Part shown: positions 1 through 48,400 of the stretch, in pieces
How positions within the stretch are numbered: position 1 is the stretch's first letter
Layout: each line of letters begins with the position of its first letter
Assembly: GCA_008921705.1 (NCBI GenBank)
Contig: VFFE01007256.1
Span: 1,011,326-1,075,325 of the forward strand
Length of the DNA: 64,000 bases
Direction of reading: 5' to 3'
From: Burhinus oedicnemus
Lineage: Eukaryota; Chordata; Aves; Charadriiformes; Burhinidae
Program-made: the position numbers and the translations under genes
The notes under the pieces: model-generated
What the model was told of the DNA's origin: nothing
The model's input: the letters and a program-made list of their open reading frames with translations, nothing else
The model's database searches: none

Positions 1-420
1 CGCTGAGCCGCTGCGGTAGCCCGGCAGGCTGCGAGCGGGTGCGCGCGGGGTGCCGGGGCACTCCCGGAGGCGGTGCCCGTTGGGGGCGGGCGGGGGGGCG
101 GCTCCTCGGCCGCTTCCCGCGGGGCGGGCGGTGGCTCGGCTGCTCGCGGGCTGGCACCGACTGGAGCGGCCGCCGACCACGGCGGAGCGATGATCCGCCG
201 GGAAGGTAAGAAGTGCCCTGCCCTGCCCTGCCTGCAGCGCCGGGCACCGCGGCCCGCTGCGCTCAACAAGTGTCTGCCCTGCCGGTTACCGGCACCAGGA
301 TTGCGCCCGGTGCCCCGCGCTCCTGCCGGGCAGCTCCCGCCTTCCCTCTTTCCCCGCCACGGGCTGAGCGGCCCTGCCTGGTGGACCTACGGGGTTGAGA
401 CCTGAGGACCGATTGCCCCA
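1..420 (+). promoter_or_regulatory. CpG-rich promoter and 5' leader of the L27-type DLG3 transcript
   Basis: Very GC- and CpG-rich sequence with Sp1-like GC boxes around 84-103 and no evident TATA box surrounds the first L27 coding exon. It drops to ordinary composition after about 420. I infer a CpG-island promoter; the transcription start is not visible and may lie before the window. Confidence 0.6.
190..205 (+). CDS. DLG3: DLG3 L27-form first coding exon (5 codons plus 1 nt)
   Basis: ATG at 190-192 with G at -3 encodes MIRRE plus the first base of an Asp codon, followed by a strong donor (AAG|GTAAG at 206). It resembles the very short first coding exon of the DLG1/SAP97 L27 form, where a few basic residues precede 'DTxRA'. 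The exon ends in phase 1 and the next acceptor (2268/2269) supplies AC to complete Asp. The reading frame upstream of the ATG stays open to at least 73 without another ATG, so this start is the natural choice. The exon is too short to prove by itself; its support comes from the phase fit and from the L27 exon that follows. Confidence 0.78.
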
Positions 421-3400
421 GCTACACGCCCTTCCCGGGCCGTAGGACACGTCCTGGTGCCACTGTGGCTCAGAGCGGGTGGCCGTAGGATGCTGTGCTT
501 GCAGCACCCTTGGGTGCTGTGGGGAGGGCGGGTGTGGGCCCGGCGGGGAAGGACCTCCTGTAAGTGGGACTTGTACCTTGAGATGGGCCCCGGACATCAC
601 GTGCTCTTTCCTGAGTGCAGCAGGAAGGGTGCTCTGGTCTCTGCCCTGTGCTGGGGGCACAGCATTTCCCTGCATGTGGTGGTCCGGGGCCAGAGCTCCC
701 CTGTCACCCGCTGCTGGTGGCCGTCAGCCTGGGGTGCATGCCGCTCTTTCTGTGCAGCCTGGACTGGGGTGGGATGTTCACACCAGGTTCAGTCTTTGTG
801 TCCTGGTGTGGTGGCCCCCGTTCTTAGCAGCTTCTGCTGCTAAGGTCAGGAATGACCAGGTGAAGATGACTCAACCCTGCTCGCGGGATGCTGGGCAGTG
901 TCTGAAGCCACTGGCTGAACTTGCAGAAAAGGAAGCCCTTAGTGATAACACAGGGCTGGGATGCCCATAAAGCCCACTAAATCTGGAGCTTGGGGTTGTC
1001 CCTGTTTTTCCTGGAGCCAGCGTGAAGCCCAGCTCTGAAGCAGGAGCTATTCATGCTTCCCCAGGCTCCTTTCTCTGTTCTGCTCCCACGATGAGTCAGT
1101 GTGGGCTGGTGACACAGGCAGGACCTCCTTCCCCTTTCGGCTGAGGAAGAGACGGGAAGGGAGCTGGCTGCACGAGCTGGGATGACAGGTGGCACGCACC
1201 CTAGCAGACACAGGCCCCCTTGTTCGATGACCTGAATTCCCTGCCAAGAGCCCTGGGATGAGCAGGGTCATCCTTTCTGCATGAGTTCCTGGGTTAAAAG
1301 ATGAGTCCCCAGCAGTGGCGGGACAGCTTCCCTGCCTCCTCACACAGACACTCTTTGTCTGTGGGCTGCCTGGGTGACAAAGGGAAATATTCACTGATAG
1401 GGCTGGGACAGGCTCAAGGTCCATGGGAGCTCCTCACCTGCCTGAGAGATGGGTCACATCTGAGGTGGAGCTGGACTGGTAGCTCTGGGTGTCAGCCCAG
1501 AGAAGCATGGAGATGTCCTGGCACAGAGAGATCATAGCTCTGCTATTTGAGGTCCAAGGTTGTCTCACAGCTATGGTGAGCCCAGTCTTTAACCAAGGCA
1601 TTTCTTCATGGCAGCCTCCAGCTCCCCTGCTGGCTAGCGTCCCTCCTTCCCTGACCACAAGGCATCATGGTCCTTTCCCACTGTGTCTGCTGCTGACCCC
1701 AGGCTGCTTGCTACGGGGAGCAATTCTTATGCTTCGCCCTGTAGAAACCCAAGTTTTGCCGCTTCTGTAGCTGAGCTGTTGGCAGTGTCTTGTGCTACGC
1801 AAGTGGGGCTACGCTCAGCTTTGCTGCAGCCATCTAGCCCCGCGTGGGAGACTGCAGCTCATAGCCCTGTGCAACTGGGATGCCTCCAGCTCCTGGACAG
1901 CTTCTCTACCTGGGAGGTGGCAGAGGTGCTCAGGCTGCCCAGTGCCATGGGGTTCAGAGGTGAGTCAACCTAGGTTTAGCCCCTGATTTTCAGGGTTGAG
2001 GAGGGCCAGCAGGCAGAACCACCTCCCCTCCAGCCCCTGCCTGGTTCTCCACCGTGGCCCCTCTGCACCTCGCAGCAGGGTTAGCTCTTCCAGGTAGGTG
2101 TAAGGAGGCTGCTTTTGCAGCTGGCTGACTCTTAAAAAATCTAGAGCTGGAAGGCAACTTGAGGCATTCTCCCTCTGCACCGCTCCAAGGCTGCACTGAA
2201 GTCTGCCCTGAAGACATCTGTCCATCCTTCAGTGTTAATGCCTTGTTACTCCTGTGTTGTCTCTGCAGACACTGAACGGGCAGTGGAAATTCTGACCAGA
2301 TACCAAAGCACCCTGCGGTCCCCGGAGGAGCAGGAGCTAAAAGCCTCCATTGGAAAGGTCTCGCACATCTTTCAAAGTGAACTCTTCCAGGCTCTGCTGG
2401 GTAAGCCCCTGCCTTGCGGTTCCTGGGGCTTTGTGGTCAGTGGGCTCTCCTGGAGGCCTGATCCTGCACAGGTGCCTGGTACTGACCAAGCTGAGCACAT
2501 CCTGGGCAAACACATGGGTGCCTGTAGCACCAGTGAGCTGGGGTACCTGTCCACTCCAGGGCTTGGGCAGGAGATATGGGGGTTGGGGCTGCAGTCACTG
2601 GATGTTCGTGATGTGAACAGGATTCCTCTGTCGGGTGATTGTGGCCTTCTTCATCAGGCCGTGCCAGATCTAGCCAGCACCCACTAAAGGATGCTGCAAT
2701 GCCGTGAGCACCCTCTGCGCAGTGCCACCGTGGTGTGGCCGCAGCCACTGCTGGGTCTCCAGCTCTGCTGCCATACCAAGGACACCCTGCCACGGCGCCT
2801 TGCTCCTCCCTGCACCCCTCGGCCTCATCACAACCTGCTACTTTCCATTCCTGCTGCCGACCCGAAGGGAAACTAAATTTTTTCTGGCTTTGAGAGAGAA
2901 TCCATGCATACTCAGCTGCTTTTGGGGTATTCTGGTCTTTCGTGCACTGAGACCTATGAGCACTTGCGAGTAACACACTGTGCAAGTGGCTCCATTTCAC
3001 ACAAGAAACAGACTTGGCAGTGAGGATCATCCTGGGGCTGGGCACCAGAAAAACGCTGTTTTGAGCGCAGCATAAAGCCCCCCATGTGGATTTAGACAAA
3101 CACAGCTGGAGTCTCGCCGGACTACGCAGCTTCTCCAGGCAGGACACATGGCTATCTAGCTGAACAAGGTCATCTGAAAATGCATTTTCTTTGCAAAGTG
3201 TTTTGGGGTTTTTTTTTTGTTTTTTTGTTTTGTTTTGGCTTGGTTTTTTTGTTTTGTTTTTTTTTTTAAAAACAAAATTTGATAGTTTTGGACTCTGAAG
3301 TTGCTCGGCTCTATTCCCTGCCACAGCAGACCAGATCCTGGCTGTACAGGTTCACTTAGGGCACTGATTTTGGAGGCAATCCCAGAAAACCATTTGCAGA

Positions 3401-6400
3401 AGCTGCAGTGTGCCGAGAGGGGCAGGAGCTCCTGCTCAGCTCCTCTCCTTAAGTCTTGCTTGCTGTGGGCCTCAGGGAAGCACATACAGCCCTGGCGGTT
3501 TCTGTTCCCAGGTCTCCTGGGAGAGAAGCTGAGTTTCCCTGCTGGCAAGGAAGGGAAAGCACCCCAGAAGCTCTGTGTCCCAGGGGCCCCGGGATGCAGA
3601 GCTCCATGCATGGTCTGTGCCTCATTCTTGGTGTGTCTTGACTCAAAGCTGTCTCAGCCCTGGTGCTCCCCCTCACCATCGCTCTTCTCTCTCACCTTTC
3701 CTCTCACCTTTCCTGCACACCTCTGCAGCCAGAGACCCATTTCTGTGCCCACAGAGCCCCGAGTTGCCAGCAGCTCCTCTCTGCTTCAGGTTATCCATTG
3801 AAAATGAAATACAACTATGGGATAAGTGGTGTGTCCTGAGCTATTTTATTCCCTCCTTTCTTTGTTCTTGCTGTTGGAGCATCACCTGGAGGCTTTCGGC
3901 CCCAGCATGTCCTTGTGCAGGGCTTGCGCTGGGACATCTGTGCCCATCAGCAGCAGAGACATGCGGCAAGGGAGGGCTCCCCAGGGCTGTGGGCAGAGGA
4001 CCAACGTGCAGCTCTTTTCTTGCCTCTTCATTTATATCCCCTCCCAAAATCGTCCCCAGCCTACAATTAGCCCCAAGCTGGAGGCAGCGGTCCCTAGCAG
4101 AGCTGTGATCACCTTGGCAAATCTGATACAAGCCCAACACCCCTGGCTGCGTTTGTGTGCTCTCCCTGGGGCTGCGTGAAGGCAGCAAAGCAGCTTTCCC
4201 AAAGCCCGGGGCTGTTCGTATTAGTACAAAAGTGTTATGGAGAGAGTGTAGCTGGAGAGAGCCCGTCTGCACAGACTGAGCTGGCTGCAGTTGGCACACC
4301 AACGCTGCACAGACTTCCCAGCTCTCTGCTTTAAACTGTCTGTCTTGGTGTCCTGTCAACGCTGGCACGAGGGAGTGTCGCTTGATTGCTGGTGACCTTT
4401 TCAACTGGTTTAACAGGATATTAGTTCCCCATGCCAGAGCGAGCTTTCTCGAGATATGTTTACCTAACTAGGAATTTACAATCATTACTTACACACACAC
4501 ACACACACACCCCTGGAGTGTGGGTTTGTGAATTCCTCCATCCCTGTGTGGACACGTATGATGCTGTGTCTGGCTGCGTGCTTGCTCTGCCTGTGCACAG
4601 CTGGCATGCACTAGGGACACTAGGTGTCCACAGTCCAGCCTCACTGGAGTGCAGTGACAGCTCTAGGAGGGTGGTGGAGCATTTCTATTTTATTTATTTT
4701 TCACCCCCTCTTTTCCCAGTGGGTTGCTGTGTCTCTGTCTGAAGTTTGCTCAGAGTCATGGAGCTGGTTCAGAGTTTATCTGAGGGAAGAGGATTTGCAG
4801 GAGAGCCGTGGGGATGCCTCCCAGTGCAGAGGCTCCCATCGCACTGCCCCTCACTGTGCCAGATGCTTCTGGCTCAGGAAAGGTCTCAGCCTGCAGAGGT
4901 CCATCCTCTTGCAGCCTTCCAGCAACATGGGCTTGCTTTTTTTCAGCCCCTGGGGAACATGAATGCACGAGCATAGTACACCCCTGCCCTCAGATCGCCT
5001 GCTCCTACAGGTGATGCTCTCCTAAGACGTGTGTTGGCTGGCTTCAGTTTGAACACCAAATGCCTTATGCCATAGTAGAGCTACCAGAAGCACCAAACAT
5101 CATGGAATTTTCCAAGTGGGGCCACATGAGAAATGCCAGGGATATGGCTTTCCATATGCTTTTTTTTTTTAGAATAAGCTGTTTTGTGGACTCCAGAAGC
5201 CCCAGTTTGCCCAGCTCCGGGGGCGGGGGGAGGGGGACGGGAACAGGGATCTGCTTCATCCCAGATAAAGCCTGTGTGGTGTCCAGGGCTGGATGTATCT
5301 GTTGCCGGGAACGTGCCCAGTGTTGCTGTGTGCATGCACTGTTTTCTGCCAGACTGTGAGCACAGCACAGCCCCTTAAATCCTTGTGACCACCATGCCAG
5401 GCTCAACTCCCTCTCCCAGGAGCTGCCCGTGCCCCGGGGCACGCTGACCCTGCCAGGATGGCTCCTGGCCTGCGGCAGCTGGCTCGGCACTGCGCAGCGA
5501 TGAGGGGGCTGCTCCATGCTGGAATGCGCCAGCCCCTGCTCCGCACACGTGAAATTCCTTAGCGGCGCAGAAGGGAAAACAGACTGTGCTGGCTCCCTCC
5601 TCCCTGCCCCTCTCTCCCTGCTCTGAGGCCACAGAACCAAGCGTGTGACTTGCAGGGAAACAGCCCAGCAAAAGGGCGTGTGAGGAGCCTGGGCTTGGGG
5701 ACGCTGGGGCAATGGTGGCCCTGCTTTCCCTCTGCTCCCCAGACCCCCTTGGGGAGATGCTTGGGCCCATCTGGTGCCGCTGGAGAGGACAAGGCTCGCA
5801 CACAGAAGCAGGTCCCTGGCCTTTCCTTCCCGGAGCCAGGGCTGAAAGGGGCCGTTGTGCCCATCACGGCGGGCGCAGCCGGGTGGACAGGCAGGGTTTG
5901 TGTGCACTCGGCCACCCCGGCTGCCAGCAGCCCGAAGGGAAGCACTCCTCCCGAGAGCTCTCTGGCGCTTGGCTCTTCTCCCATGCCTGAACGGTGGCTG
6001 GCGCAGACCCCAATGAGGTCCTGTCGGCTGCTCGGCCCCCCCAACCCTCCCCTCTGGCCCCTTTTACCCCCCTTGTGCCCTGCTGCTGCGGAGGCACAAG
6101 GAGAGACAGGCTCTTGCTGACCCATGGTGCTTCCCTGAGTGCAAAACTCCAGCCAGGCACTCGGCTTGCCAGCAGCACTGCTGGGGATGGCGGCTGCAGC
6201 TTAACACGCTGGCTGCAGGAGGCAGGGTGAAAAAGTGGAGGAATCTGGAGGATTCCCAGCCCTGTGGACTCCTCGTTTTGTAAATTAGCCCATAGCCAAG
6301 GATGGAAAATCATAGCTTGCTTGAAAGCACTGCTGTGGCAGCCAGAGGTGTGAAACCTCCTGGCAGCAGTGGGGCTGAGGCTGGGAGCCTGGTGCGAGGC

Positions 6401-9400
6401 TGGAGTTTCTGCTTGAGGTAAATGCGGTGACACTGCTGGTGACAGTGCATGCGTCGGGGAAGCAATGTAATTTTCTGGAAGTGTGCATGCTGGCTGGCAT
6501 AAGGGCACTGCATCAGCCCTTGGATGTTGGTGCTATAGAAATACTTAATGACACTTACTTGATGTATTGACCCCAGGAGGAAATTGTTGGACAAATTCTA
6601 ATCTCTGTAAATCTTAAGTTACTCTTCCTTATTAGATCCAGAGTGGATTTACGCTGTCATCAAACAGAAATTCAGCTGTAAGACAGAATATGGAGTGTCA
6701 TCTTTTGCTACCCCAACATCCTTTTACTGAGGCTTTTCAGGTAGCATCGCTCTTAAAGCGTGCAGGTGAGGCAGGCTTGTGTGCAACTTTTGATGCCCAT
6801 AAGAAAAGAAGGAAACTGGCATATATTTAAATTATCTTTAATGCCACATGCACGTGTGTCGTAAAATGTACTCCTGTCAGGGCCGTGCCCTTCGCTGCCT
6901 GAACCCCATCCCCAAGTCGTGAAACTCCGCTAATCCCTGGTGCCAGCAATGATTCCCTCTCCTGGCAAGTGTCTAAAACGGGCTGAGGGATTTGGAGGTG
7001 GAGAGTGGAGGCTTCGGTGGACAAGATTCCTGCTCCACAGGCACCTTACCAGCTTGGCTGCCCCAGGCTGTGTTCCTGTAGCAGATGGGTGACAAACGGG
7101 GATGCCAGCAGTGGTGCACCCCCGTGACAGGGCCGCTCAAATCCTGTTTTCATTTGTGCAAAGTTTTGTGCGTTCCCAGCGTAATCCACGCAGCCAGGAG
7201 CCCCTGCTATCTCGTTATGCAATGGCTATTTTTATAACCAGAAGGGAGAGATGTTTTTGCATGAAAACAAAGTCCCGTTTGTCTGGCTGCATGATGACTG
7301 CTTGCTGTGACCTCATGTCTGATTTGGGAGGGCTTTAGGGGCTGCCAGCAGCACACTCGGCACCTGGGGGGCTGCAGAGGGGATGCCCCAGGCACGGTGG
7401 CTGGATCTGGGGACTCCCACTCCTCCTGTCATTGCCAGCTGCCCCATTTCTCCCAGGGCACAGGACAGAGCCTGGTAATGATGCAGCGTGAAGCAGCAGC
7501 TCCAAAAGCGGCATCGATGCCAGGCAGTGGCACGGTGCTCCCTGGACTTGGGCGGCTGCAGTGCCTGACTGGGCTCCCTGTGGGCACAAAGTCGTTCTGC
7601 TGGCAGACGAGATTTATAGCAGCTTTTTCCCTGTGGCTGGGAGGTCACCAGGCAGCCCTGGGAACTGGGGATGAGGGATGATTCTGCTCCCTGTCCCGTC
7701 TGCAACATGGATGTGCTGCCACCATGCATGGGCATGTGGTTGAGCATGGGGAGAGGATGGGGACTTAGGTCTGGGGGCACAATCCTGCTCTGTGAAAACC
7801 TCCCTGGGAAACAGCCTTGGGCAGTGCTCAGCACGTCCCTGCTTACACTGCCCGGCGCTCACCAGATTTCCTTTGGAAATCTTTATAAAGTAGGCATTTA
7901 ATATCCCGTGGTGCCTCGGTGTGGCATAGTTTCAGGTAAGAAATCACACACTGAAGGGCTGGCGCAGCCACTTCATCCCCAGCTCCCCAGGGAGCGCCGG
8001 GGGAACGGCCACAGCCCCCTCTCGCCGAGACCCACTGCTTGCCTTTGGGGTTGCTCACAGGAGAGGGGCTCTGCAGCCTTCTCTGCAGCGTACACAGGTA
8101 CAGAAAATGAACTCAGGTTTCTGCTGCGGCTTTCGCCACTCCGAGTGCTTAGTTATGCTGCCGTGACTTTTTGGCCCTGCCGACTCCACCAGGCTTCCTG
8201 TTTCCCAGGTGCTTGAAGGGATTTATTACTTTTTTATGCGTTTTGCAAGGTGTTTACCAAACTCTTTTGGCTGACCTTTTGGAGTTTTACCTTTAACCTG
8301 GCAGCATTTACCATCCTTTCTGTTTTTCTCATTTGGATACAGCTTTAGCTGTTTAGATGAACATCCTCTCGCTTTTAATAGTCTCCCTTCCCCTGCAGTC
8401 CAGCCTTGCTTTCCTCCCTTTTGCCTTTCCAGTATCCTCCAGCCAGGCACTGTGGCGTTTGCTCTGATGTCCCAGTGGGGTCTCTCTAAATAGGCTCAGT
8501 GCCTCCCATAAATGTTTTACCCTCTGTTTTTTGATGTAGTTCCCTTTCTGAAGTTAAATGCTTCTGCAATGGATACATTGGCTTCCGTTGCTCCTATAGA
8601 GGTGCTGGATCTGGAGGTCTGTGCCTGACCTGGCTCTGGAGATGAGCTGGGGGTGGCTGGGGGCCGGCAGCTGCCTGAGTGCATGGTAGTGGGGGCTTCC
8701 CTAGGGAGGAGCAAAGCCCACTGCAGCCCTGCTGCTCCCTGCAATCCTCTGCATGTGACCGGGAGAGGGTAAAATGCTCCTGGCAAGGGTAGGAGAAGGT
8801 CTGGGCTCCCATGGCCCCTCTGGAGCTACACCTAAGTGGCAGCTGCCATCAGGTCCTGGCTGTCATCCTGTAACTGTCTCTGGAGCAGCGAGGGCTGGGA
8901 TATCCCATTCTCGCACATTTCTCTTGAGCCACTAGGACTCACCGCAGTGGACTCAGGTCCTTGGAGCCCAGAGTGAAGATACCTGGCATCTGCTTGTGGC
9001 AGTGTGCAGGCTGCCAAGCGGGAAGAGGGAATTTATTGAGGAAGGAGCTGGAGATAACACAGCTGTAGCCATCGGCTTTAGAGCTTGCACACTGTGAGCC
9101 TGCTGTCCTAGTGCCCTGTGCCCTCTCTGCCTGTCCCGGTGGGAAGAGAGCCCCGCCGTGGCCCAGGGGAACTGGGGAGCTGTCATGGGGAGGGAAAAAC
9201 CTGGCAGTGTCAGGGCAGGCAGGGGCTGCCTGGCGCAGGAGGCTTCTCGAAGCAAAAGGGACACGGGACCATGCATGGGGCTGGCACAGCCTGGGGGAGA
9301 GCGGGATGGGGTGTGTTTATGATTGATGTTGCTGAGGATGGTTTGCTCTTAGTCCCCATGAAGCGTTTGGTCACTGCTCCATGGAAATCCTGTGGCTTCC

Positions 9401-12400
9401 GCAGGCACGGGGCACTGTGTGCTGAGCCAGGCACCCCATTGCACCTCTTGCCTTGCAGGGCGGGCACAGTGGGGAGCCAGCAGAGCCCTGTCCCAGCCCA
9501 TCACTCAGGGGCAAGCCTCTCGCAGAGGGCTCAGACCGATGATGGGGGCAGAGCGGGCGGGCACAAGTGCTGCACCCCATGCAGGATGCCGGCACTGGGC
9601 TGCCTCCCTGGTCCTGTGGATGTTTCTCCTGCTGTTTTTGCAGATATTCATGAATTCTACGATTTCACACTGCGCTCCTCACCCGTGCAGCCTCCCAGCC
9701 CAGACGCACGTCACGGCACAGCCAGGCAGCACCATAGTGCCAGCGAGCCCTGCTCCACAGTCACACCCGGAGTGCCCCAAAACCTCCCCAAGGTAAGAGC
9801 CATTCTGGCATGATGCTGCAGGGCCAGACCCCGCACACTCCTGCACCAAGCAGGAGGCAAGGGGCACGGGAGGCAAGGGGCACGGCAGCCCAGCCAGCTC
9901 ACACCCGGAGTGTTTCCACATCTCCTCTGTCATAGCTTGGCTCATTAATGAGGCAACTTCTCTGGTTCACAAGTGTTAATTGAATTACTCCTAATACAAA
10001 TAGCTTCAGCTTCAGCTCTGGTTCCTGCTCTGCTGTTGCAGCTGGATTAGTTGCTCCTGTCTGACGCTGTCTCCCATGGAGACATTTCGGCTTCTCTGAT
10101 CTAGCCACATTGCAGGCTGCTTTTGATAAGTGAAGTAGGTTGAGTCTTTTAAGTTTCCCTTTTCAGGAATTTTTTCCAACTCTCAGATAACTTCTGTCTC
10201 TCTTATTTGCATTCTCTTTAATTTTCAATGGCCTTTTAAAAGATATGGCACCAGGTGGGGGAGGCAGGAGTTGAGCAGTAGGGTCTCAGTTATCTCAAAG
10301 GCACCAAGCTAAACAAAATTGCCTTGTGCCTTTGCAGGCCCCCTTCCCATCCCTCTCTCACTGCCTTGTGCCCTGCCAAGGGATGCTGTGGAATCCCCCT
10401 GAACTGGGGATACAGGAACATTTGGGCAGAAATGCAAAAATTTGGGGATTCCTCCTTTCAGTGAAATAATCCTATCAGATAAACACCATATTTCTGCCTC
10501 ACGGACTGAACTGGCTTCCTGTCATATACCTGTGGGGACACCAAATTTGAGTGGCACACGGGGACAATGGAGCTGAACGATGTCACCTAAGAAGGAACAC
10601 TTCAAAGGAGTTTGATGATCAAGAACAGGGGGGACAAAACTGTCCACCATCAGTGCAGGAGATATGTGTCCCCCTCTGACTCAGGAACCATTTTAGTCCC
10701 AGTTTTTCTTGACCCCCCTTCACATTGACAGTCCCTCTATTCAAAGGCAAACCTGCATATCTGGTCTGTGTTTATGAATGAATTTTTAGCAATGTTATAC
10801 TATAGGCAGTGGGATCCCACTTTGGTTTTTTGGGTCTCCTGTAGTCTCGATCCTCCCACCGGCGAGCTCTGCTGGCAACAGCCACCGGTCTCTGCAGCCA
10901 GGCCAGTCCGCAGGGGCCCGAGGAGATATGACAGTCAATAAGGATATTTAAACATCAATGTGGAAGCAAGCAGGGAAGCAGCCATGGGCCTGGCGCAGCC
11001 AGCCTGAGGGGCACTCCTGCTTCCCCCGCAGTGCCCTGTGCCCAGTGGGGATGAGCAAAGCAGCTGGTCTTGGGGCTTCCCTGCACCGAACACGGCCCAA
11101 GCCCATCGACGCCATCAAATCCCTCCTCCTTTCTCCAAAAAAAGTGTTTGAGGCACTTTGTGTTGCTGAAACATGAAATGCAACAGGGAGCTGCCTCCGC
11201 CCGGCAGTGGGACAGCCCCGGAGTCCCCTGCCTGCAAGCCTCCATCCCAGTGGAGCAGTGACCCCGCTGCCCATGGGCCAGTGCCAGGGCAGGCAGTCAT
11301 GGGCAGTGGGATGCTCACTGAAGGCTGTATGAGCCCCCTGCATAGGGGAAAGCTCATTTTGGCCCTTCCAGAAGCGGGGGGGGGCCTGGAGGCAGCTTGC
11401 CTGCCCTACCTGCATGTACCCCCTGTCTCGTTTCAGGATCTGTCCGGGGATGGTGAGCGGAGGCTTCCCGAAGGGGCTGGGGACAGCGCGCCGGGAACAC
11501 CACCTCGGCTAGTGAGGGTGACGGCACGGAGGACAGAGGCACCGGCCAGCATCTGCAGCCTGGTACTCGGGTCTCACAGCACCCTGCCCCAGGTGAGCCT
11601 CCGTGCACCCCACGCTGCATCCCACCCTGCCAGCCCGGCCGGCAGCTGGCACTGAGGGGACAGCACCAGGGCTGTGTGCCCGAAGCACTGCAGGGACGGT
11701 GCTGGGGAGGCATTTTCCTCCCCTGGGGCTGGCAGTGTTTCCTCATGGCTATTCTGGTGATACTCAGGCTAGGAAATCTAGCAGTCATCTGTGCCAGGGG
11801 CTGGAGGACACTGAAATCATCCCCTTGCATTAGCATTTACCATGGCCCGGTGTCACCGCCGGGGCTGGGAGGGCAGGTGGGTACGGTGCAGAAATAAAGA
11901 TGCTGCGTGGAGCTGGAAATCCTCCCAGCCCTGTCCCTCTCATCCCCAGCTCTGGCACACTCCCACGTTGCAGATTTCCGTATTTTTTTCTCTGAGCTCT
12001 TAAATGGCAGGTCCATTCCTCAGCTTACTGGGAGCTTTTCTCTGCTGTCTCATTTACCTGGAAACGCCATTTATTTGGATGTGCATCGTAAATCGCAGCT
12101 GCCTCCTGGTGCGAGTGCATCGTTTGGGCTACACATTTGAGGGGAGTTTTAGGGACAAACAAAGGGCAAAATGCACTTTTGGGAGGGCTGAAGTGGCCAG
12201 GATGGATGGAGCTCACCACAGATTTAAAATTATATGAAAACGTTGTTTTCCTTGGCACAGTTTGAAATAATGCTTATTTGCTAAGTCAAAGTCTTCTTCC
12301 AAAATATTTTAAATACAAAAATTGCTCTGCTTCTTTTCTCTCCTTTTTAAATGTTTCCCTTCTTATTCTGGACTGCAATAAAATGGGTAACACCCCATTT

Positions 12401-24400: not shown

Positions 24401-27400
24401 AAGTGGGCAGAGGCATTTGTCTGACCGGCTGTCACGTGCTTCCTCTTCCCACGGCCCCTCTCGTGAGCAGGGCCTTATCGCGATGGCTGCATGAGGCCGG
24501 TAGGAGCCTGCAGATCTTGCAGCCTGAACTGGGGTGTTGAACCACCCCGTCTTGTGGCTCAACCTGTGACTCCCTCCTGCTTCTGTCTCATTCCTTTACC
24601 CATATCCAGCAGGAGCCCTGTTGCACACCTTTCATTGCTCTTCTACATATTTATGTACCATTTCTTCAAATAATTCTTCACCCACCCTCGTGTTTATTAC
24701 AACCCTTAGGCAGTAGAAGGCCAGGTTCAGGTTCTAACTGGTCAGATGTGGGGTTTTGTAATGTTTTTTCTTTCTACCCTTCAATTTGTTTGGGTGACTC
24801 GCTTCTGAACTTCCTCCAGTCTGGCATTTCTGTGCAAGAGGTGAGGGATTGCCTGAGCTGCACTGGGAGCGGCGCCCTTGCCCTGCTGCACCAGCAGGCA
24901 TTTCTGCTCTGCTTTTACCATCCATCCCCCGACGGCAGTAGGTGGAAGGCCCAGGGAAGGCCCTTGAGGTTTCTACACCCCCAATGCACCCGCGGCTCAC
25001 AGGGCAATGACAGCAACCCCAGGGTGCTTGTGCTGAGGCGCGCGGTAACATTTTCAACAAAGCAGGGTGAGACCGGACGTGGGGATGCAACAGAGATGCT
25101 GCTGCTGGGCTAGTGGCCATGGTTCAGGTCTGGAAAAATGATTTTCATACTCCAGTGTGGATCAGAGCTGATGCGAAGTGAACACCTCTCGGTGTCAACC
25201 ACAAAGCCGGCAGGGCCGCCCACCGCCGTGCTGGGGCCAGAGGAACGGAGCTGCCCGAGAGCTGCCCGGGGACGGGGTGAGGGCAGCCGCAGGTGATGCA
25301 TGAGGCTGCCGAGCGGGGCATTTCTGCTCCTTCCGGACGCCGCCACGGCAGCCTGCCGGGCAGCAACGGAGGCAGCGCGGGCACTCCCCCGAACCCGCTG
25401 CTCGCAGCCGGGTTTTGGACCCGCTGCCCGGGAACTGCCCCCTCCGGTGGCGGCAAGCGCGGCCGCGGCGAGCGGCGGCGGGGCGGGGCGGAGCGGGGCG
25501 CGGAGGCTCNNNNNNNNNNNNNNNNNNNNCTCCTCCTCCTCCTCCTCCTCCTCCTCTTCCTCCTCCTCCTCCCGCTCCCGCTCCCGCCCGCGGGGCCGGG
25601 GGTGCCGGGCGGGCGAGGAGGCGGTGGCAGCAGGCGCGCCTTGCGCGGGGCGGAGGCCGCTGCCGCCTCCCGAGCATCCCTCTCTCTCTCCGCGCCGCCT
25701 CCTTCCCTCCCTGCCGGCTCTATGGTGTGAGGGCAGCGATGCACAAGCACCACCACTGCTGCAAGTGCCCCGAGTGCTACGAGGTGACGCGGATGGCGGC
25801 CCTGCGGCGCATGGAGCCCCCCTCCTACGGCGAGTGGCAGCACGAGCAGTACGGCTACGGCGGGTACGGCTCGCCGACCCTGCCCGCGCCCGGGGGGGCC
25901 GCGACCACCGCTCGCGGCAAGGCCAAGCTGGGGCCCCCCGCCCGCGACCCCGCCGCGCTGAAGCCGCCGCCGCCGGGGAAGAACGCACCCAAGGTGAATG
26001 GGAGCGGCCCGGGCTGGTGGCCCGAATGCACGTGTTCGAGCCGCGACTGGTACGAGCAGGTACGGGCCAGCCCCGGGCGGCGGCTCCTCGGTGATGGGAT
26101 GGGGCAGGCAGCTGATGGGGAGTCACCCGGGGAGAGTGGCGGGGTCGTGGCAGGGTGCAGCATCACCCCTGGGGCGTCGCAGGCGGCCGAGGTGGATGCT
26201 GGCGTTGCTGGGGCTGGACGCTGGCATTGTTGCGGTTGGCTGTCATTGTCGCTCGGGCTGGCTACCGGCATCGCTCAGGTTGGCATCGCCGTTGCTCAGG
26301 CTGGCTGCCATGGTCCTGCCCAGTGTAGGAGCTCTGCATCCGAGCAGCTTCCCCGGGGCTGAGCTGGGCCAGCTGGGTCTCGCGCCACACAGCGCAGGTG
26401 GCAGGTGTGATGTTTTTCGGACACCGCACCCGAGGTCCTTGTCACTTATGATGCTGTTGCCTGAAGCCCCGGCAGTGTCGAGGGCATCCCATCGTACTGC
26501 GTTCAGCAGGCGTGGGGCGTGCTGCCTGCCGGGCAGCCTCATGGGCTCGCGGTGCTGCTTGCCAGCGCTCCCAAACTGGCACTCGCTCTCCATTGAGTTG
26601 TGGTTTCCTCGCTCTGCTGCTACGTCCCTGCTCCCTGAGATCATTACGTAACCCTGCTCCGGTCGCTGGCTTGCTATGTGCTTTCTGCCCCATTTCACTG
26701 CCTCCATTTCTTCCCACACACATTCGTTTTATTAGTGTTCTCCTCCAGGACCCATTCTCAGGCTGTGTCTCTCTTTCTCCCCTAAATGGAGAGACCAGTC
26801 TTGTTTTGAACCCACAAGCCAGCTTAGAAAATGGTTGGAGCTGTTTGCAAAGCATTAAAATGGAGGCTAGACCCTGCCTGAAAAATAATTTACCCTGCTT
26901 TAGAGAAAGGCATTTCAATTTGCTTCTTCTGTCTCTTTCATTCATTATCTTCAAACCTCACATTATTTCTTATTGATCCTTCTAATTATTATTTCAAGAT
27001 GCTGTAGCAGGCAGGCACAAGGGAATCAATGGGAATTCTCTCCTCCTTTCCCCTTGGAAAACACAACCCTCTTCTTCCCTTCCCCTGTTTTTTCTTCATT
27101 ACTGTCTCAGTCTGTAGCTCTGGTTGAAATAATTAGATTAAAAGCTGCTACGCTCTGATGATGTTTACAGAAATCGCCCAAAAACCCAGCCACCTTCCTA
27201 TCAGCCTGGTCTTGCTTTCTGTCTCTTTCTCTGCCACACTTTGCATCAAAATCAGCCTCCGCTCTCTCTTGCCTGCTGATTCCTGGCAAGCATTCTTCCA
27301 TCTTTCCTTCAGTATCTCTTTCCTTCCCTCCATCCAGAGCAGCAAGCTCAGGGAGCTGGGTAGGAGCAGGGAATTGAAGCATGTCTGCTCCTTCCTTTCC

Positions 27401-33400: not shown

Positions 33401-36400
33401 CTTGTGACCAGGGACCTTTCAAGTCCCGCATTCCCCATTTCCGGATGGCCGTGGTGCTTTGAGCCAGTGCCGAGGCGCAGCCGCGAGGCAAGGGCTCTGC
33501 TGCCAGAGCCTGCTCACACCGCCAAAACAGCCCAGCTCTGGTGTCTCCCAGATGCAGCCTGGCGAGGAGGGCAGCTCTTGCCCACGGGCCACCACACTGG
33601 CTGGTAGCTGAGCCCAGAGGCATGGGCAGCAGCCGGTGCCTGGCTAGCTGGGACTGATATAGGGGGTCTGGGCACCCACAAGCTCCGTAGTTGATGCTGG
33701 CATCATTTCCTACGTCGTTTATGCTGCTTTTCGAGCTGTGCAGAAAGACGACATTGGGCCAGGCTCAGCCTGTCGCTCCCCTTCATGCAGGCACGCTGTC
33801 GGGTGGCGTGTGCCTCCCCCTGCCCAACCGGTGTCAGCAAACAGTCAAACAGTCTCTCTTGCAGTGGGTGAGGAAAAATGCAAAGAGAGTCCAGCCAGGT
33901 TAAAGGGAGGGGAGACTCATCTCTGGCCACAAAATTCTTCAGCCTCCAGAAGTTTCCAGCCTCCATTTTCTGTTGCTCCCTGTCCCAGCCCGTGGGATCC
34001 CTGAGGGGTGCAGCTCTCCCTTGGGGCTCTGCAGCCCTTTGATGCTCCCAACCACACTCGGCTCTGGCCACCATGTGAAGAGCCCACGAAGGCAAAAAGC
34101 AGCGAGCACGGGGAGCTGTGAGAAGGGGGCCAGCATCTGGCAGCAGTGTGGTACCTCTCCCCTTGAGAAGGGAAGGGATAGGAAAGCCAAAGCGTGGATT
34201 TGGTGTTGAAATGTAGGAAAAGCCCTACATCTCGTGGGCCAGGGGAGAGCCAGGCTTCAGTCTGGGAAGGGATGTGCCATGCACCATTTCTTAATGGGAG
34301 GTCTGTGAGGTGGCTTCCCTGGGCACAGCCAAGTGAAAGCCGAGGGGTCTGCGGGCATGCAGGCATCGGGGGGGCTCAGAGCAGCCTGGAGGGAGGGTAC
34401 CAGCACCTCTCTGCTCCACACACCTGCTCTGCGGCGGGGGCAGAGCCAGGGCTCATCCCCTCCCTCGCCTCGGGCACCGGGAGACTGAGGAGCAGGTTTC
34501 TGTCCTGCCTCAGCCTCAGAAATGCCTACAGGTTGCTGTGGAGGAGCTGTGTCATCTTGGGTGCTTTGGGAGGTGACATTTTTGGCAGCTCCTTGTTGGG
34601 CTGTGGGTTGGTGGAGGAGGCAGCCCCTGTGTTGGGGCAACCAGCGTCTGTGTGAAGGGCAGGGAAGTCTGGCGCGAAGCAGATGAATGTGTCGATGCTT
34701 ATCAGGGTGAGTGGTGGTGAACACGGGCTCACTGTGTGCGCTGTGCCGGCAGGACCTGGGCTCACTCCTGTGAAATTAACTCATTAGCTTGGTGTGAACC
34801 TGCTCCCCCCTGGCAGCAGGAGCCTGTTGGTGCCCAGGCATCCCACAGCCGACCCCGCTGCTGCAGCAGCATGGCACCACTCCTCGGCATCCCCGAGCTG
34901 GTACCTGCGTCTTCACAGCTAGCGCCTGGCGCTGTGGGGTCCTGCCACAGAGTAGCTGCTTTCATAGCTGTAAACGCACAGCCTTCTCCGGGGTTTAACA
35001 CCCTTTAAAAAAAAACCATCAAAGCAGATGGAGCTGGGCTACAAGCAGCCCAGTGTGTCCACCCTGTTTAGATGCTTCTGTTGGGCATCGCCCCACTTGG
35101 CCTCTGCCCTTGAGAGCTTTTAAAAAGATGTAAAGACGGAATTCCACTAATGTCCAGAGCCACTTCCTTTTGAGTGTTACTATTATACCTCAGATGGTAT
35201 GAAACAGAGGATATTAAAAGGCAGATTGACTTTTCAATCTGATCCAATCAGGGAAAGTTGCAGAAATAAAGGAGTTAAGTTAGTACTTTGCTTCTCATGC
35301 ACTAACCTAGCATCACAAATAGTCACCCTGTCCTGCACATCACTCGGTGTGTGACATGGGGCACACCAGCCTCCTGCAGAGAGCAGCTCTGTGCATTAGG
35401 CTTGGTATTTGTCAGCTCTGGAGGCTCCTGTTTGAGTCCTGTTGCTCATTAAGATGGAAATGGGTTTATATGTGGGCACAATCTAGTTGCCATTGGCCTG
35501 GGATGTCTGCAGCACATTTATTTTGTCTGGAGGAGGTATGTTATTCCCGACCTCTGTGGGCTGGCCCCCATGCTGGCTCTGTGGAGGATGTGAAGCTCTT
35601 GCAAAGCTTCGGGATTTCAGCTCTGGAGAGAATATCTTGAACTTTCAGTTCAGAGACTCCCCACTCGGCTCTCGTGTGCCAGCCCTGAGAGCAGTCCTTG
35701 GGGAAATGCCGCAGGGCAAGGCTCGGCCCTTGGAAGCAAGCTAACGAACCTCCTCCGTTTACATTTAATTGCAACTTTTCTTTTGGTTGGAAGTTTTGGA
35801 AAATCATCATGTTTTGCAATTCCTGCCTTTGCCCCAGCAGATGACTTCAATAGAAACGGAGGTGAAGGGTGATACCTATAGATGTTTGGGGCTTGGCCGC
35901 CCCCCAGGTGACTGTGCTGGTGCCCCAGGCTGCCAAGGGCAGTCACCCATCGGAAATAAGGCCCAAACAGCAGCGGTCCCTCTCAGATGACTGCCCAGAG
36001 GTGATATCTAAAGATGTGTCTGAAAGGCCGCATCCTGGCCTTGAGGTGTGTCTGAGCGCTGCTGGCTGTCCTGCTGCTCCCTATACATGCTGCAGTGAAA
36101 TCGCTCCAGCCGGGGGGGGGGGGGGGGGGGGGNNNNNNNNNNNNNNNNNNNNGGGCTGAGGGCTGTTGGGGAGGAGATGTCCCTCCTGCCCTGCATGCAG
36201 ACCCGCAGCCTCCTCCTGGCTTTAGCCACAGAGGCAGCTGCCCCTAGACAGGCTCTGGGCCCTCCTGGGGGCTCTGCAGGGAGCCAGCCCCTCGCTGGGG
36301 ACTGTATGGGGCAGGTTGCTGCTCCCTCTGTTAGCACCTGGGCTGTGGCTGCCACTGGGACCGTAGTGTAGTGCTCAAGCACTGGTGCCTCGACACAGGT

Positions 36401-39400: not shown

Positions 39401-42400
39401 GGTGGGATTCCGGCCTGAGGCTGGGAGAGTTTCCAGTCTTCCCTGGCTCCTTCCCAGCAGCTGAGGCCGTGGGGTGTTGGGGGCACACCAGGCCTGAGGA
39501 GAGGACCAATGTCCAGAATGATGCTGTGGCCCTGCTTCTGTCACAGGGTTGTTGGGCACCTGGAGGAGGGACAAGAGCAGAGCCCTTCTGGCATTGCTCT
39601 GTGGTGGCACAGCCAGGAGAGATGCGGTGCACCGCCAAGGGCTGGGTTCATCACTTAGCTCAGTGACATCCCGTTTTTGTCTCCTCACAGGCCAACCCTG
39701 CTCCCATTATCGTGAACACAGACTCGCTGGAACAAGGGCTCTCTGTAAGTCTCCTGGTTTTGTTTCGCTTCCTTTGAACAAGTGGTGTGTTTTCTCTGCT
39801 CGGCGGTGCAGGAAAGGCTCCTCCAGCCCAAGGAGGCCCTGGTGAAGTGGCAGAGGAGCCTGGTACCTGCACCACATCCCCACAGCACATCCCACCCCCA
39901 AACCTCCCTGGGGCTGGCAACACTGAGCAGAGCCAAGGCTAGCAGCAAGCGATGCTGGGGGCTCCAGCACAGGCAGGGTCCAAAGCAGGAGGCACTCCGA
40001 GGAGCACACTGTGGGGTGAGCAGGCATCAGAGGAGCAGGGGAGCTGGGCTGGCTGTGTTCAGGGTTACCCACACAGCCATTTCCTCAGCCTCCCATGCAG
40101 GGTGGCTGCAAGGCTCCGTTGGGGCATCCATTACCTTCCTGCATTGCCTCAGCCCCCTTTGGCAGCCCTGGCCCCTCATGGGAGAGGCAGGGCTCTCTGG
40201 GCACTCGCTGGCATCGCCCCCGCTGGTCCTCAGGGCAGCAGGACCCATCAGATGCCACTTCTCTCCCAGTAAAGTCTGCCAGCAGCTGAGCAGTGCTTGG
40301 TGACTGTGTGTGTTTGCAGCCACAGTGCATTTGGCACTCTTGGCATAGTATAAAGCTAATCCTCCTCGGTTTGTTGCAGAAAGGGTTTATGCACTGCTGC
40401 ATTCCTTCCCAGAACATTTGCAAGTCATTCCTGCTGGGGGGATAGAGGGAGCAGGGTGGCCAGCATGGATTTCTGCAGCACTGCTCGTGGGGGGCGGGGA
40501 GTGTCCCTTTTTTTTCCCCAAAGGGAACTCAGTTGACAGCTTGCCAGGGCTGGGTGCTTTGCACCTGGTTTTCTTCAGATGCAGCAAATTTCAGCTGCCT
40601 TCCACATTAATGAAGCAGCACCGGGACTCGGAGCTGGGGCTGGTTTGTCTTTGGAGTCATGGTGGAGGGTTGCAGGTGACTTCTAGTGGTTGAATCTTCC
40701 ATGTAAAGAACAGCGGATCTCAGCCCACAGCCTGTGGTGGGGTCAGTGCCCATCAGAGCTGTGCTGGGCTGGTTGAGCAGGGCTTCAAAAAGGAAGGGAA
40801 GCCCAGCTGAGACCTCTGCATCCCTGGCTGTATGGTTTAATTACGCCTCAGGTGCTGAACCAAAGCCACCTGGCATTGGAGAGGAAGGCGATGGTGCCAC
40901 TCTCAGTGTGATGATTTTGGGTCCAGCAGCCTTGTATGAATGTGGCAGAAGAGAGTTGCTGTCCCCAAAGGTTTCCTTCTCCAAACACATGGCGTGGCAG
41001 GGTGTTGGGTTGGAGGCTTCTTGCAGTGTGCTGGGCACCCTGGCTGGAGGGCAGTGCCATCTTCCAGCCTGCTCTCTGTGCTCACCCAGCTGGTGCCGTT
41101 CTACAGGGAACTAGAAAAAGGGCAATGTCTCCTGGAGGGGAAGGACACACCGCAAGGTTGGACTGGGGCGAGGGAGGGGTGTGCTGTGGGCAGGGCAGGG
41201 AGGTATTCCTGGATGGAAAGTCTGCTTTCATGTCTGTTTTGTAGCCTCCCTCCGTTGAGGGGAAGGCTGCCTGCTTGCCATCACAGCCACCAGTGCCACA
41301 TCTTTCGCCAGGCTCCAGACATGTCTGTCCCTCCTCCCTGCCTGTGTGCCCAAGGGCAGCAAGAGGTGACTCCGAGAGCCAAGGACAGGCTCTGTCACCC
41401 CAGGCAGGCTCCCGAGCCCTGCAGAAGCCAGAGCAGGGAGCCCGCCCGTGTGGGGCCACCTCCTCCCACCACAGTGCACTCCACTTTCCTGCCCTCCTGG
41501 CTGCCTCCCCCACTCCGTCTCATTAACTCCGTATCACTCCCACACCCTCTCCCTCCACCTCGTTAGCTCCATATCCCCATCCGCCCCTTCTCCCTGCGCC
41601 TTGGCCGCAGCTCCTTCTTGCCATGCTGGATGGGAGCTCCCTTTCTACAGCCCCTGGGGTGGGTTTGGCTGGGTTGTGGGGGCTGCTCGGCACCCTTGGC
41701 AGGCACCAGCATCACCCTGGGGATGGCAGTCACCTACCCCATCCATCCAACCGCAGCAGTACGTGCGGGGAGAACTGCCCTGTGGCGGTCAAAAGGAAAG
41801 GGCAGTTGGTGGCTGTCATCTGCTGGGCAGACCAGGGACCACCAGCCCTGTGCCCAGGGCAGGGGAGACACCTCGAGATTCCTCTCGACCTCCAGCCTGA
41901 AAACCCTCTTGCCTTCTACTTCATGTCATACCAGCACAGAAACAAGCCCTGCTCCAACCTTTCCTTCTCTGGGGAGCTGGGCTCCTCAAGCTCCAGGGAA
42001 AACACACCTCAAACCCTCCCATTTGGCAGTTTCCCAGGTCAGCAAAGGAGCCACACCAGGGGCTTGCTGCAGAAGAGCACACCAAAATGGCAAATCTGGA
42101 AGCGTGTTTTTTCACAAACCCAAAAGCTGAAGCCTGTTGGTACAGTATAGATGTGGAAGGGTTAAAGTCACATCTTCCAGTCTTTAATTACTTAACTATT
42201 CACTGCTTTCCTTAATGATAAACAGATGGATGTAGTCTAGTTCCTTCCTGTTCTAGCTCCATTGATTGCATTGGACTAGCTGCTGGGCTGAATTTGGCCC
42301 CGGCTGTTTATCAAGAAGTCTGCTCCACATTTCAAATTCTCTGTCCACCCACCTCCATCCCCAAGAGCATGTGGCATCAGCAGCACTGTAAGGCATGAGC

Positions 42401-45400: not shown

Positions 45401-48400
45401 TGACCACATGTCCCTGTCCCTCTGAGGCTGTCAGCCTGTTCAAGAGCTGACCAAAGCCTTTCTCAATGTGCTGGGAGGATCAGAGCATCCTAATATTGGA
45501 GCATCTGGATGTCCCGACCCTGAACTGTGCCCTGAAATCTTCCCATGGCTGAAAGGTATCAGGCACAGAGCACAACTGAGGAGGGACAGCCCTCTCAGCC
45601 CATGTTCCCTGGAGGCTCCTTTCTGTCTGTCCACTCCAGACCCTCCCCAACCTCATCCTTCTTGAAGCATGGTACCCACAACAGGGCATGGGATTACTTT
45701 GGTCTCAGCAGGGCTGAACCAGGCAGGGGATGAGGGTGCGTGTGTCACAGGTGGCACAGCCTTATCCCAGATCCTGGCATGTAGAACTGATCTTCCACCT
45801 GGACACCTGATTATTCCCACCTAGAAAAACTCCTATTTGCTCTTCCTACCTGTAAATAGGACCTCATAGCCACCTCGCTGAGTTTCCTTCCATGGTGTCA
45901 GATGATGGCTTTAGCATAAATGAGGTTTGCTCTCCCTTCCATCTAATGACCCGCCACTGTGGGGTTTTGGAGGATGGCCAGGCTGTGCCTCCACGGGGAC
46001 AGGTAGCGGGGAGCTGGGCAAGCAGGACACAACTGACGTGCTGGTGCCGGATGAGGGGTCCTGTGTCCGAACAAAGCCACAGCAGCTCTGGTTTGGGATA
46101 TGGAGCCTGTACACAAAGTGGCTCCAGACGATCTACAAGCCATCAATTAATGATGGATGTAAAATCCACAAGAGGAACCCTGCACATTGTCCAGGGGCCG
46201 CAGGCAGAGGTAGGGCTGCAGGATGGGAGAGACATTTGCCTGCTGAGCCCCGGCTCCCACCACCTCTGCCATGCTGTCAGACCTGCCTGCGTCCCGTCCC
46301 TTGTTTCCCAGAGTGACTCAAATTGTGAGGTTGAGTCCGGTCCCCTCCAAAACTGTTGCTGGTGAGTGCAACAGCTCTGGTTGTTCCAACAGCCAATTTC
46401 TTTGCAAATCTTGCTAAATTTTAGACCTCGGCAGCTGTTTATCACCTGAGCCTGATGACCTGGAGTGAAACTGCTGCCTTATTTTCCTGTGCATTGTTGC
46501 TTATGGGGAAAATAGAAGTTTTTGACCTGTACATTTACCATTTCTTACTTGAGAGCCTACAGTTGCATCCCTTTTGTTTCAAGCCATTACGTTTCCCAGA
46601 GCCCTGCTTTGACACTCTGGGTAGGTTTTAAAGCGTGGGGGTCAGTATGGTGTACAGCATTGAGACAGGCTACACCATTTTTTTATATAAGGGCATCACA
46701 ATGTTTTCCCTTCTTACTGTGCCCCACACTCGCATCTCGTTTCCTTTGCACCCAACTAATTTGGTAGAATAAATTATTCTGAATTCCCTGTTAACACAGT
46801 CATGCTACTAAAAGATTTAAAAGATATAAGCTGCTAAAGGTGTTTATTATGTTATTATGTACAGACATTATTTTTTTCCTTTAAATGGACCGACCCCCTT
46901 TGCTTCCTGCAGCAGTGAATTCCCAAGGTTAATTACATGCTGCGTAACAAAAGCGTTATTTCTTTTTGTGCCTTCAGTTGTGTTCCTTTTCATGGCTGGA
47001 GAAATGAGCCAGGAGAATAAAGGCTTTGCACTGAGTGCATTAAAGTCAGTGGGCTTTGGCTCATGCCCAGAAAGAAAAGCAACGCACGGTTTAATTCCAG
47101 GGCAGGCTCAGGCGATTGCGTTTAAGGCTTTTTTTTTCAGTGGTGACGATGCAGCTTTTAGGTTGGATTCTTGACATTCAGCTATCAGAGGGGAAAAGTA
47201 AATCCCCCCGGGACCAGCAGAGAGCTGTAACGCGCTGTCTCCCTCTCCCCAGGTGAACGGCAGCGATGGGATGTTCAAATACGAGGAGATCGTCTTGGAA
47301 AGGGTAAGTGCTCTTTACTCACCTGCCGGCAGCCTTTGCTGCCTCTTCCTACTCACCCTCCCACCGCCGCAGCTGGCACCCCCCGCATCCCCGCACCAGC
47401 TGACGGGGAGTGATCGGTCTCTGCTCCCCACTCTTTCCAGAGGCTTTTGGAGGTGTCACGCTTACCTTCCCTGCCCAGCCCCCGCAGTGCGGGGAGAGGT
47501 GGACTTGCTGCTCCCCCACCCCCCGCAGACCCCTCCAGAAGGGAGGGAGGAGGGCTTCTCCCTCACTCACACCCTTGCCCCCACAAACCTGCCAGTGCGG
47601 AGCTGGGGGGGTAGGCTCTTTGTCACCGCTTTTGCAAGAAAATGAGGGTGCTCCTGCAGGCACGCAGGTGGGCGCACCCCACAGCTGGGCACAGGGGACT
47701 GATGCCTCCCTGCCACTGGACCCCCCATCACTTCGGGGTGCACAGCGTGGGGATGCTAAACAGCAAGGACTGGTTTTCTGGCAAACTGGACCACAATGGG
47801 GGGGAGTTTCTGCTCGAGCCTTTTCTTGTCCATTGACAACGCAGAGCTGATGGCGTGCACCACACCGGCCGTGGCTAAAACTACATGGGGCACCAGCTGG
47901 CACCACACAGGGTGGGGAGGGCTTTCCCCTGGCACCCAGGGAGTGGCAGGGATGGAGAGGGAGCGGGAAAAGCTGGCCCAAGGTTTGCTCTGAGAGGTGG
48001 GTACAGCCCTGCCGAGTGGGGATGGCTGAGGCGGGAGGCTGCCCGCGGCGCTCCACAGCACACCTTTTCTCCTCCTCGCTGCCACACCAGGTGGCTTGGC
48101 TTTGCCGCGTGGCTAGCATGGCAGGGGAAGACGCACCGCTCGTTATTCTGTTCCTCTCTACCTTTAGTCATCTCCCTCCTCCCCTTGGTTCTGCATCATG
48201 GAGGTGGGTGGACGGAAGGTTATCTGGGGCTGCCGCCTCACCCACCGCTTCCCCGGCATGCCTGACAAAACCAGCCCAGGGAATGCTTCCTTTTTGGGCT
48301 GAGCACTTCTTGCTCTGGGCCCAATTTAGAGGCAAAAGCCTTGTTTTCAGGGATTCTTCAGAGCATCCTCTGTCCTCAGCCCACAGCGGGAGCAAGGGGA

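Follow-up and report, generated by a model that had tools for sequence, protein, structure and literature searches.

A probable L27-bearing, beta-type N-terminus of DLG3 in Burhinus oedicnemus and its counterparts in sauropsids and ray-finned fish

The closest described counterparts of the locus analysed here are the beta forms of two paralogues, DLG1/SAP97 and DLG2/PSD-93, and the mammalian form of DLG3, SAP102. The L27 domain of DLG1 binds the L27N domain of CASK (excerpt of PMC6679578), and MPP7-LIN7 associates with DLG1 via an L27 domain (excerpt of PMC4764564). DLG2 has 5' L27 exons and alternative heads that arise from alternative promoters, and its alpha forms are palmitoylated (both from excerpts of PMC6389146), whereas the SAP102 head is not (excerpt of PMC10620527). 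The available passages of two articles call SAP102 unique in being without a palmitoylation site and without an L27 domain (PMC3979375) and state that DLG3 is without L27 (PMC7962242), just as the sequence-only reading that preceded this work had noted for mammals. Rat SAP102 has an alternatively spliced region of 18 residues near PDZ1, called I1, which is tied to GluN2B and spine shape and which a legend places in rat and not in human SAP102 (excerpt of PMC10620527); elsewhere I1 is assigned to GRIN2A instead (excerpt of PMC8295539).

We analysed a window of 64,000 nucleotides of Burhinus oedicnemus DNA (contig VFFE01007256.1, positions 1,011,326 to 1,075,325). An exon rebuild (14 exons) placed the DLG3 coding region on the + strand, with roughly its first two thirds inside the window. 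The gene was recognized as DLG3/SAP102 by the head exon MHKHHHCCKCPECYE at 25739 and by DLG3-type PDZ1-3. Its features are as follows.

1..400, no strand: CpG-rich stretch at exon 1 (GC 0.77, CpG observed/expected 0.88), the probable promoter of the L27 form, presumably in use
190..205, + strand: E1 of the L27 form, with the start codon (ATG at 190), MIRRE and the first base of D; donor GT
2269..2400, + strand: E2, most of the L27 domain (Pfam L27_1); AG/GT, phase 1 to 1
9644..9792, + strand: E3, end of L27 (IHEFYDFTL) and variable linker; AG/GT, phase 1 to 0
11437..11592, + strand: E4, linker ending LVRVTARRT...LPQ; AG/GT, phase 0 to 0
25739..26059, + strand: usual SAP102 first coding exon (MHKHHHCCKCPECYE...RDWYEQ), which the L27 form would skip; phase-0 donor, CpG-rich over 25300-26300
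39691..39744, + strand: E5, encoding the 18 residues ANPAPIIVNTDSLEQGLS and proposed to correspond to the I1 insert of mammalian SAP102; AG/GT, phase 0 to 0
47253..47303, + strand: E6, common to both heads (VNGSDGMFKYEEIVLER); phase 0 acceptor for both heads
50357-50481 and 50978-51147, + strand: E7 and E8, shared, PDZ1 and start of PDZ2 (exon rebuild)
51530-51666, 51978-52122 and 52277-52436, + strand: E9, E10 and E11, shared, PDZ2 and linker (exon rebuild)
56994-57150 and 57597-57699, + strand: E12 and E13, shared, PDZ3 (exon rebuild)
62942..63056, + strand: E14, shared (EYSRFESKIHDLREQ...SLYV; exon rebuild); the SH3 and GK exons lie past the window end

The four L27 exons had been proposed as phase-compatible, and this held: E2 to E4 are flanked by AG and GT, E1 ends at a GT donor, and the exon-end phases of E1 to E4 are 1, 1, 0 and 0. 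The spliced translation joins them in frame to the DLG3 PDZ exons, with E7 to E14 covering PDZ1 through the start of the SH3 region, to 63056. Since E5 and E6 both accept in phase 0, the junctions 11592 to 39691 and 11592 to 47253 that had been suggested are both in frame, and each is also seen in other gene models. The distance from the L27 exons to the MHKHHH head exon downstream is 14.1-25.5 kb, as had been stated (14-25 kb). The arrangement is that of a beta-type DLG MAGUK isoform, with L27 exons in frame with linker and PDZ1 exons and an alternative head in the same gene.

The CpG observed/expected ratio was 0.88 over exon 1 and 0.89 over the SAP102 head, compared with a window median of 0.30 (1-kb windows). 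Two CpG-rich stretches, one per head, would be as expected for two alternative promoters; the sign is not specific to heads, because a third such stretch (57001-58000, observed/expected 0.84) lies over the second PDZ3 exon, away from both head exons. Three runs of N of 20 bases each (25510-25529, 36133-36152 and 57796-57815) are probably assembly gaps, and the SAP102 head exon begins shortly after the first of them. A repeat search of positions 1-12000 of the window returned nothing beyond weak, chance-like matches. Following a stop, intron 1 is open over 2148-2268 and continues in frame into exon 2 (KTSVHPSVLMPCYSCVVSADTERAVE); several models of birds, P0016, P0040 and P0050 among them, begin there. 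As the stretch doubles as acceptor and polypyrimidine region, this start may reflect an artefact of the models instead of a true alternative start with a cysteine.

The spliced peptide matched Pfam L27_1 (PF09058) over residues 5-61 with 81.9 bits (E 2.9e-23, cut-off 29.7), which in sequence terms is far above chance. It also matched three PDB entries, namely 3lra (E 2.8e-15), the DLG1 L27 within a DLG1-MPP7-LIN7C chain, 1rso (1.4e-13), the L27 of SAP97, and 4rp3 (1.2e-11), the L27 of Dlg. We take the DLG1 stretch of 3lra to be human and the Dlg of 4rp3 to be from Drosophila. These matches bear out the assignment of the exons to an L27 domain. Compared with human DLG1 L27 (the 3lra stretch), the window L27 is identical at 31/62 positions and, from RAVEIL onward, at 28/55, where about 27/55 had been noted. 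An AlphaFold2 model of the gull orthologue, rather than of the window's own sequence, has the three predicted helices of an L27 fold at residues 4-20, 24-41 and 43-60 (block pLDDT 65-89), within a whole-protein model that is weak (mean pLDDT 54.2).

We then asked how widely this form occurs in gene models, most of which are labelled as predictions and may be copied from one another through homology. All of the best 120 matches were sauropsid; 118 were DLG3-type rows with PF09058, and the two without L27 were P0103 and P0115, as a text check confirmed. They came from many birds, turtles, Alligator and lizards, and included the Gallus gallus rows P0068, P0069 and P0071. Whether bird gene models already hold the L27 form had been left as a question, and the answer is that automated annotation of birds does hold it. 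Among these best 120, the closest matches were bird DLG3 models, 96% identical to the window, followed by turtles at 81-87%, and SH3 and GK domains were carried by most rows (Pfam annotation). The E5-like stretch was present in 114/120, and E4 was joined straight to E6 in the other six (P0067, P0072, P0077, P0079, P0098 and P0099). A start of MIRR, MISR, MVSR or MTSR was seen in 98/120 rows, the remainder having other or extra 5' residues. Because 20/118 L27 rows do not have such a start and two more carry extra residues behind it, the first exon is not settled in every row.

Identity to the window was scored in two blocks, the 60 residues of L27 and the 60 residues that follow. In six other birds, L27 was identical at 57-60/60 positions and the following block at 18-46/60. 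The corresponding values were 46/60 and 18-23/60 in two turtles, 39-40/60 and 10-12/60 in two lizards, 32-37/60 and 2-4/60 in four fish, and 32-33/60 and 6-7/60 in two DLG2 rows. The bird L27 is thus nearly frozen beside a drifting linker, and we therefore argue that the domain is selectively kept and the protein used.

The age of the form was addressed with a search confined to proteins at least about 930 residues long, for which 120 matches were listed. Among these were seven bird DLG3 rows and Python with L27, and at least 17 L27-bearing rows from 13 species of ray-finned fish (Polyodon, Huso, Erpetoichthys, Denticeps, Hoplias, Menidia, Mastacembelus, Dunckerocampus, Engraulis, Paralichthys, Sardina, Poeciliopsis and Collichthys). 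Five long DLG3-like rows among the matches listed were without L27, from Mycteria (stork), Turdus (thrush), Girardinichthys, Takifugu and the frog Anomaloglossus; the last of these, the only row from a frog, combines the SAP102 head with an E5-like stretch. The other rows listed were one DLG1-like and 89 that are named DLG2, save the unnamed P0203. The Menidia model P0164 contains in one reading the L27 exons, the MHKHHH head, E5 and PDZ1, in the order found in the window. A Turdus rufiventris row named 'Disks large 1' (P0169) is, over 68% of the searched region, a 96% match to turtle DLG3; from this sequence match, the row is probably misnamed.

A tree of L27 domains, proposed earlier as a check, was built from 38 rows, of which one was dropped (no L27 could be excised), over 61 columns, with DLG1 and DLG2 included and DLG4 left out. 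The DLG3 L27 sequences of 14 sauropsid and 10 fish rows formed one clade, supported at 100/100, apart from DLG1 and DLG2. In its details the tree is limited: 14 of its 32 internal nodes are unresolved, the best tree does not recover the sauropsid DLG3 rows as a group of their own, and long branches lead to the Lampris DLG1 row, which was excised out of register, and to that of Paralichthys, which has an odd end. Since fish and sauropsid DLG3 share one L27 clade, the L27 form of DLG3 dates back at least to the first bony vertebrates. The orthology rests on the tree, because the window L27 is hardly closer to fish DLG3 (32-37/60) than to DLG2 (32-33/60). The proposal that this lineage keeps an ancestral L27 form therefore stands as to ancestry, given the tree, the sauropsid and fish models and P0164, and is too narrow as to lineage, since models of many sauropsids and ray-finned fish have the form and the placentals listed are the exception.

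These results place the window relative to its paralogues. Like the beta form of DLG1/SAP97, it encodes an N-terminal L27_1 and, as in a Lampris DLG1-like row, a similar 18-residue stretch before PDZ1; unlike it, the window belongs to another paralogue, with an L27 in the DLG3 clade and L27 exons upstream of a SAP102-type cysteine/histidine head exon. The beta forms of DLG2/PSD-93 share the 5' L27 exons and differ in that their L27 forms a separate clade. The sauropsid and fish models named 'disks large homolog 3', mostly predicted, have the same L27 form as the window. The L27 form of DLG3 is thus not a new kind of system; it is a beta-type isoform in a paralogue said to be without one.

For mammals, we used a query with turtle L27 and E5 ahead of a mammalian SAP102 body, with which an L27-bearing mammalian DLG3 was expected to outrank others. 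The 120 matches listed comprised 85 sauropsid rows, all with PF09058, and 35 placental rows, in which L27 was found in 0/35; the query was run without a positive control, and no marsupials or monotremes were among the rows. Mammalian SAP102 shares with the window DLG3 the head exon, the PDZ region and the 18-residue stretch before PDZ1, and differs in these 35 placental rows listed by having no L27.

All 35 placental rows begin with the SAP102 head, followed by an 18-residue E5-like stretch before PDZ1. Since E5 was part of the query and so favoured such rows, this count is silent on the frequency of the stretch. Exactly 18 residues lie between ...YEQ and VNGSD in 34/35, and the remaining row (P0146) has VNGSE. 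The mammalian 18-mers, for example ASPAPLLVNPEALEPSLS and, in the human row P0151, ARPAPLLVNPETLKHSLS, agree with E5 in place, length and pattern; the human row thus has the 18 residues, contrary to the legend in the excerpt of PMC10620527. Stretches at the same position were found in DLG1, DLG2, fish, frog and mammalian DLG3 rows, including an L27-bearing DLG2 (ASPAPIIVNTDTLDTIPY) and a DLG1-like row (ANPPPVVVNTDSIDTPPY). The letters differ, with IIVNT(D/E) in the eight sauropsid rows printed and LLVN(P/S)E in 27/35 mammalian rows. On the simplest reading, I1 may be E5, retained after loss of the L27 exons; for I1, this reading draws on its described length and place.

Taken together, these results make it very probable that these exons truly encode an alternative, beta-type N-terminus for DLG3. 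The alternative that comes closest, itself improbable, is that they are relicts that remain in the genome and are no longer spliced into protein, with gene models joining them by homology only. That most rows are predicted models would suit such relicts. Their frame, splice sites and phases are intact, however, the same join appears in fish and reptile models, and the near-invariance of the bird L27 beside a diverging linker is a pattern that unused exons would not show.

Less credible still is an origin of the L27 exons in a separate small gene or in read-through transcription. The distances involved, which put the SAP102 head exon about 14 kb and E5 28 kb beyond the L27 exons, might suggest this, yet the exons join in phase 0 to E5, itself like the linker stretch of L27-bearing DLG1 and DLG2, and models running in full length from L27 to GK exist in many species. 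Equally hard to credit is a later gain of the DLG3 L27 by copying from DLG1 or DLG2. A domain of 60 residues gives trees that are weak in detail, as seen in the failure of sauropsid DLG3 to form one group in the best tree; all 24 DLG3 L27 rows nevertheless fall in one 100/100 clade that contains fish as well as sauropsids and excludes DLG1 and DLG2. We rejected both the separate gene and the late gain on the in-frame E5 join, the full-length models and the single DLG3 L27 clade.

If the exons are an alternative N-terminus of DLG3, the transcript would begin at the upstream CpG-rich stretch, which presumes promoter use and expression there. E1 to E4 would be spliced, the SAP102 head exon skipped, and E5 or E6 joined together with the PDZ exons. 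The product would have about 850-900 residues, with L27, a variable linker, three PDZ domains, SH3 and GK, the lengths and the SH3 and GK domains being taken from homologous models. By analogy with the L27 of DLG1, the predicted three-helix domain would most likely pair with the L27N of CASK or MPP proteins, or with itself. DLG3 would thereby be anchored to membrane polarity or perisynaptic complexes by an L27 that takes the place of the cysteine/histidine-rich head of SAP102, and the form with that head would not be so anchored. On this scheme, the bony-vertebrate ancestor would have had an L27-bearing DLG3, and mammals would have lost the L27 exons while E5 survived in them as the I1 cassette.

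The usual statement that DLG3 is without L27 probably goes back to its description in mammals, in whose gene models the domain seems to have been lost. Among the papers listed by our literature searches, none appeared, from titles and the openings of abstracts, to give an account of an L27 form of DLG3. What looks new relative to that literature is the explicit claim of an ancient L27 form of DLG3, absent from the mammalian models listed, with a linker exon that is perhaps I1.

We see the chances as evenly balanced that the 'unique' N-terminus of SAP102 is the mammalian condition as a whole, in which an L27-bearing DLG3 of the bony-vertebrate ancestor was lost in mammals, I1 is a leftover linker exon with changed letters and a new role, and the DLG3 of birds and fish is able to take on L27-dependent tasks at membranes or in polarity for which mammals rely on DLG1, DLG2 and DLG4. 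If birds, reptiles and fish make the L27 form, the mammalian domain map would be unfit for reading chick and fish DLG3 data, and the evolution of the synaptic scaffold would include a mammalian loss. Should I1 be E5, the I1 insert of SAP102 would gain an origin, and its function would be open to test by comparison. A survey of 2007 found no DLG4 gene in chicken (excerpt of PMC1978500); if birds truly lack or hide DLG4, an L27-bearing DLG3 could be of greater importance to them.
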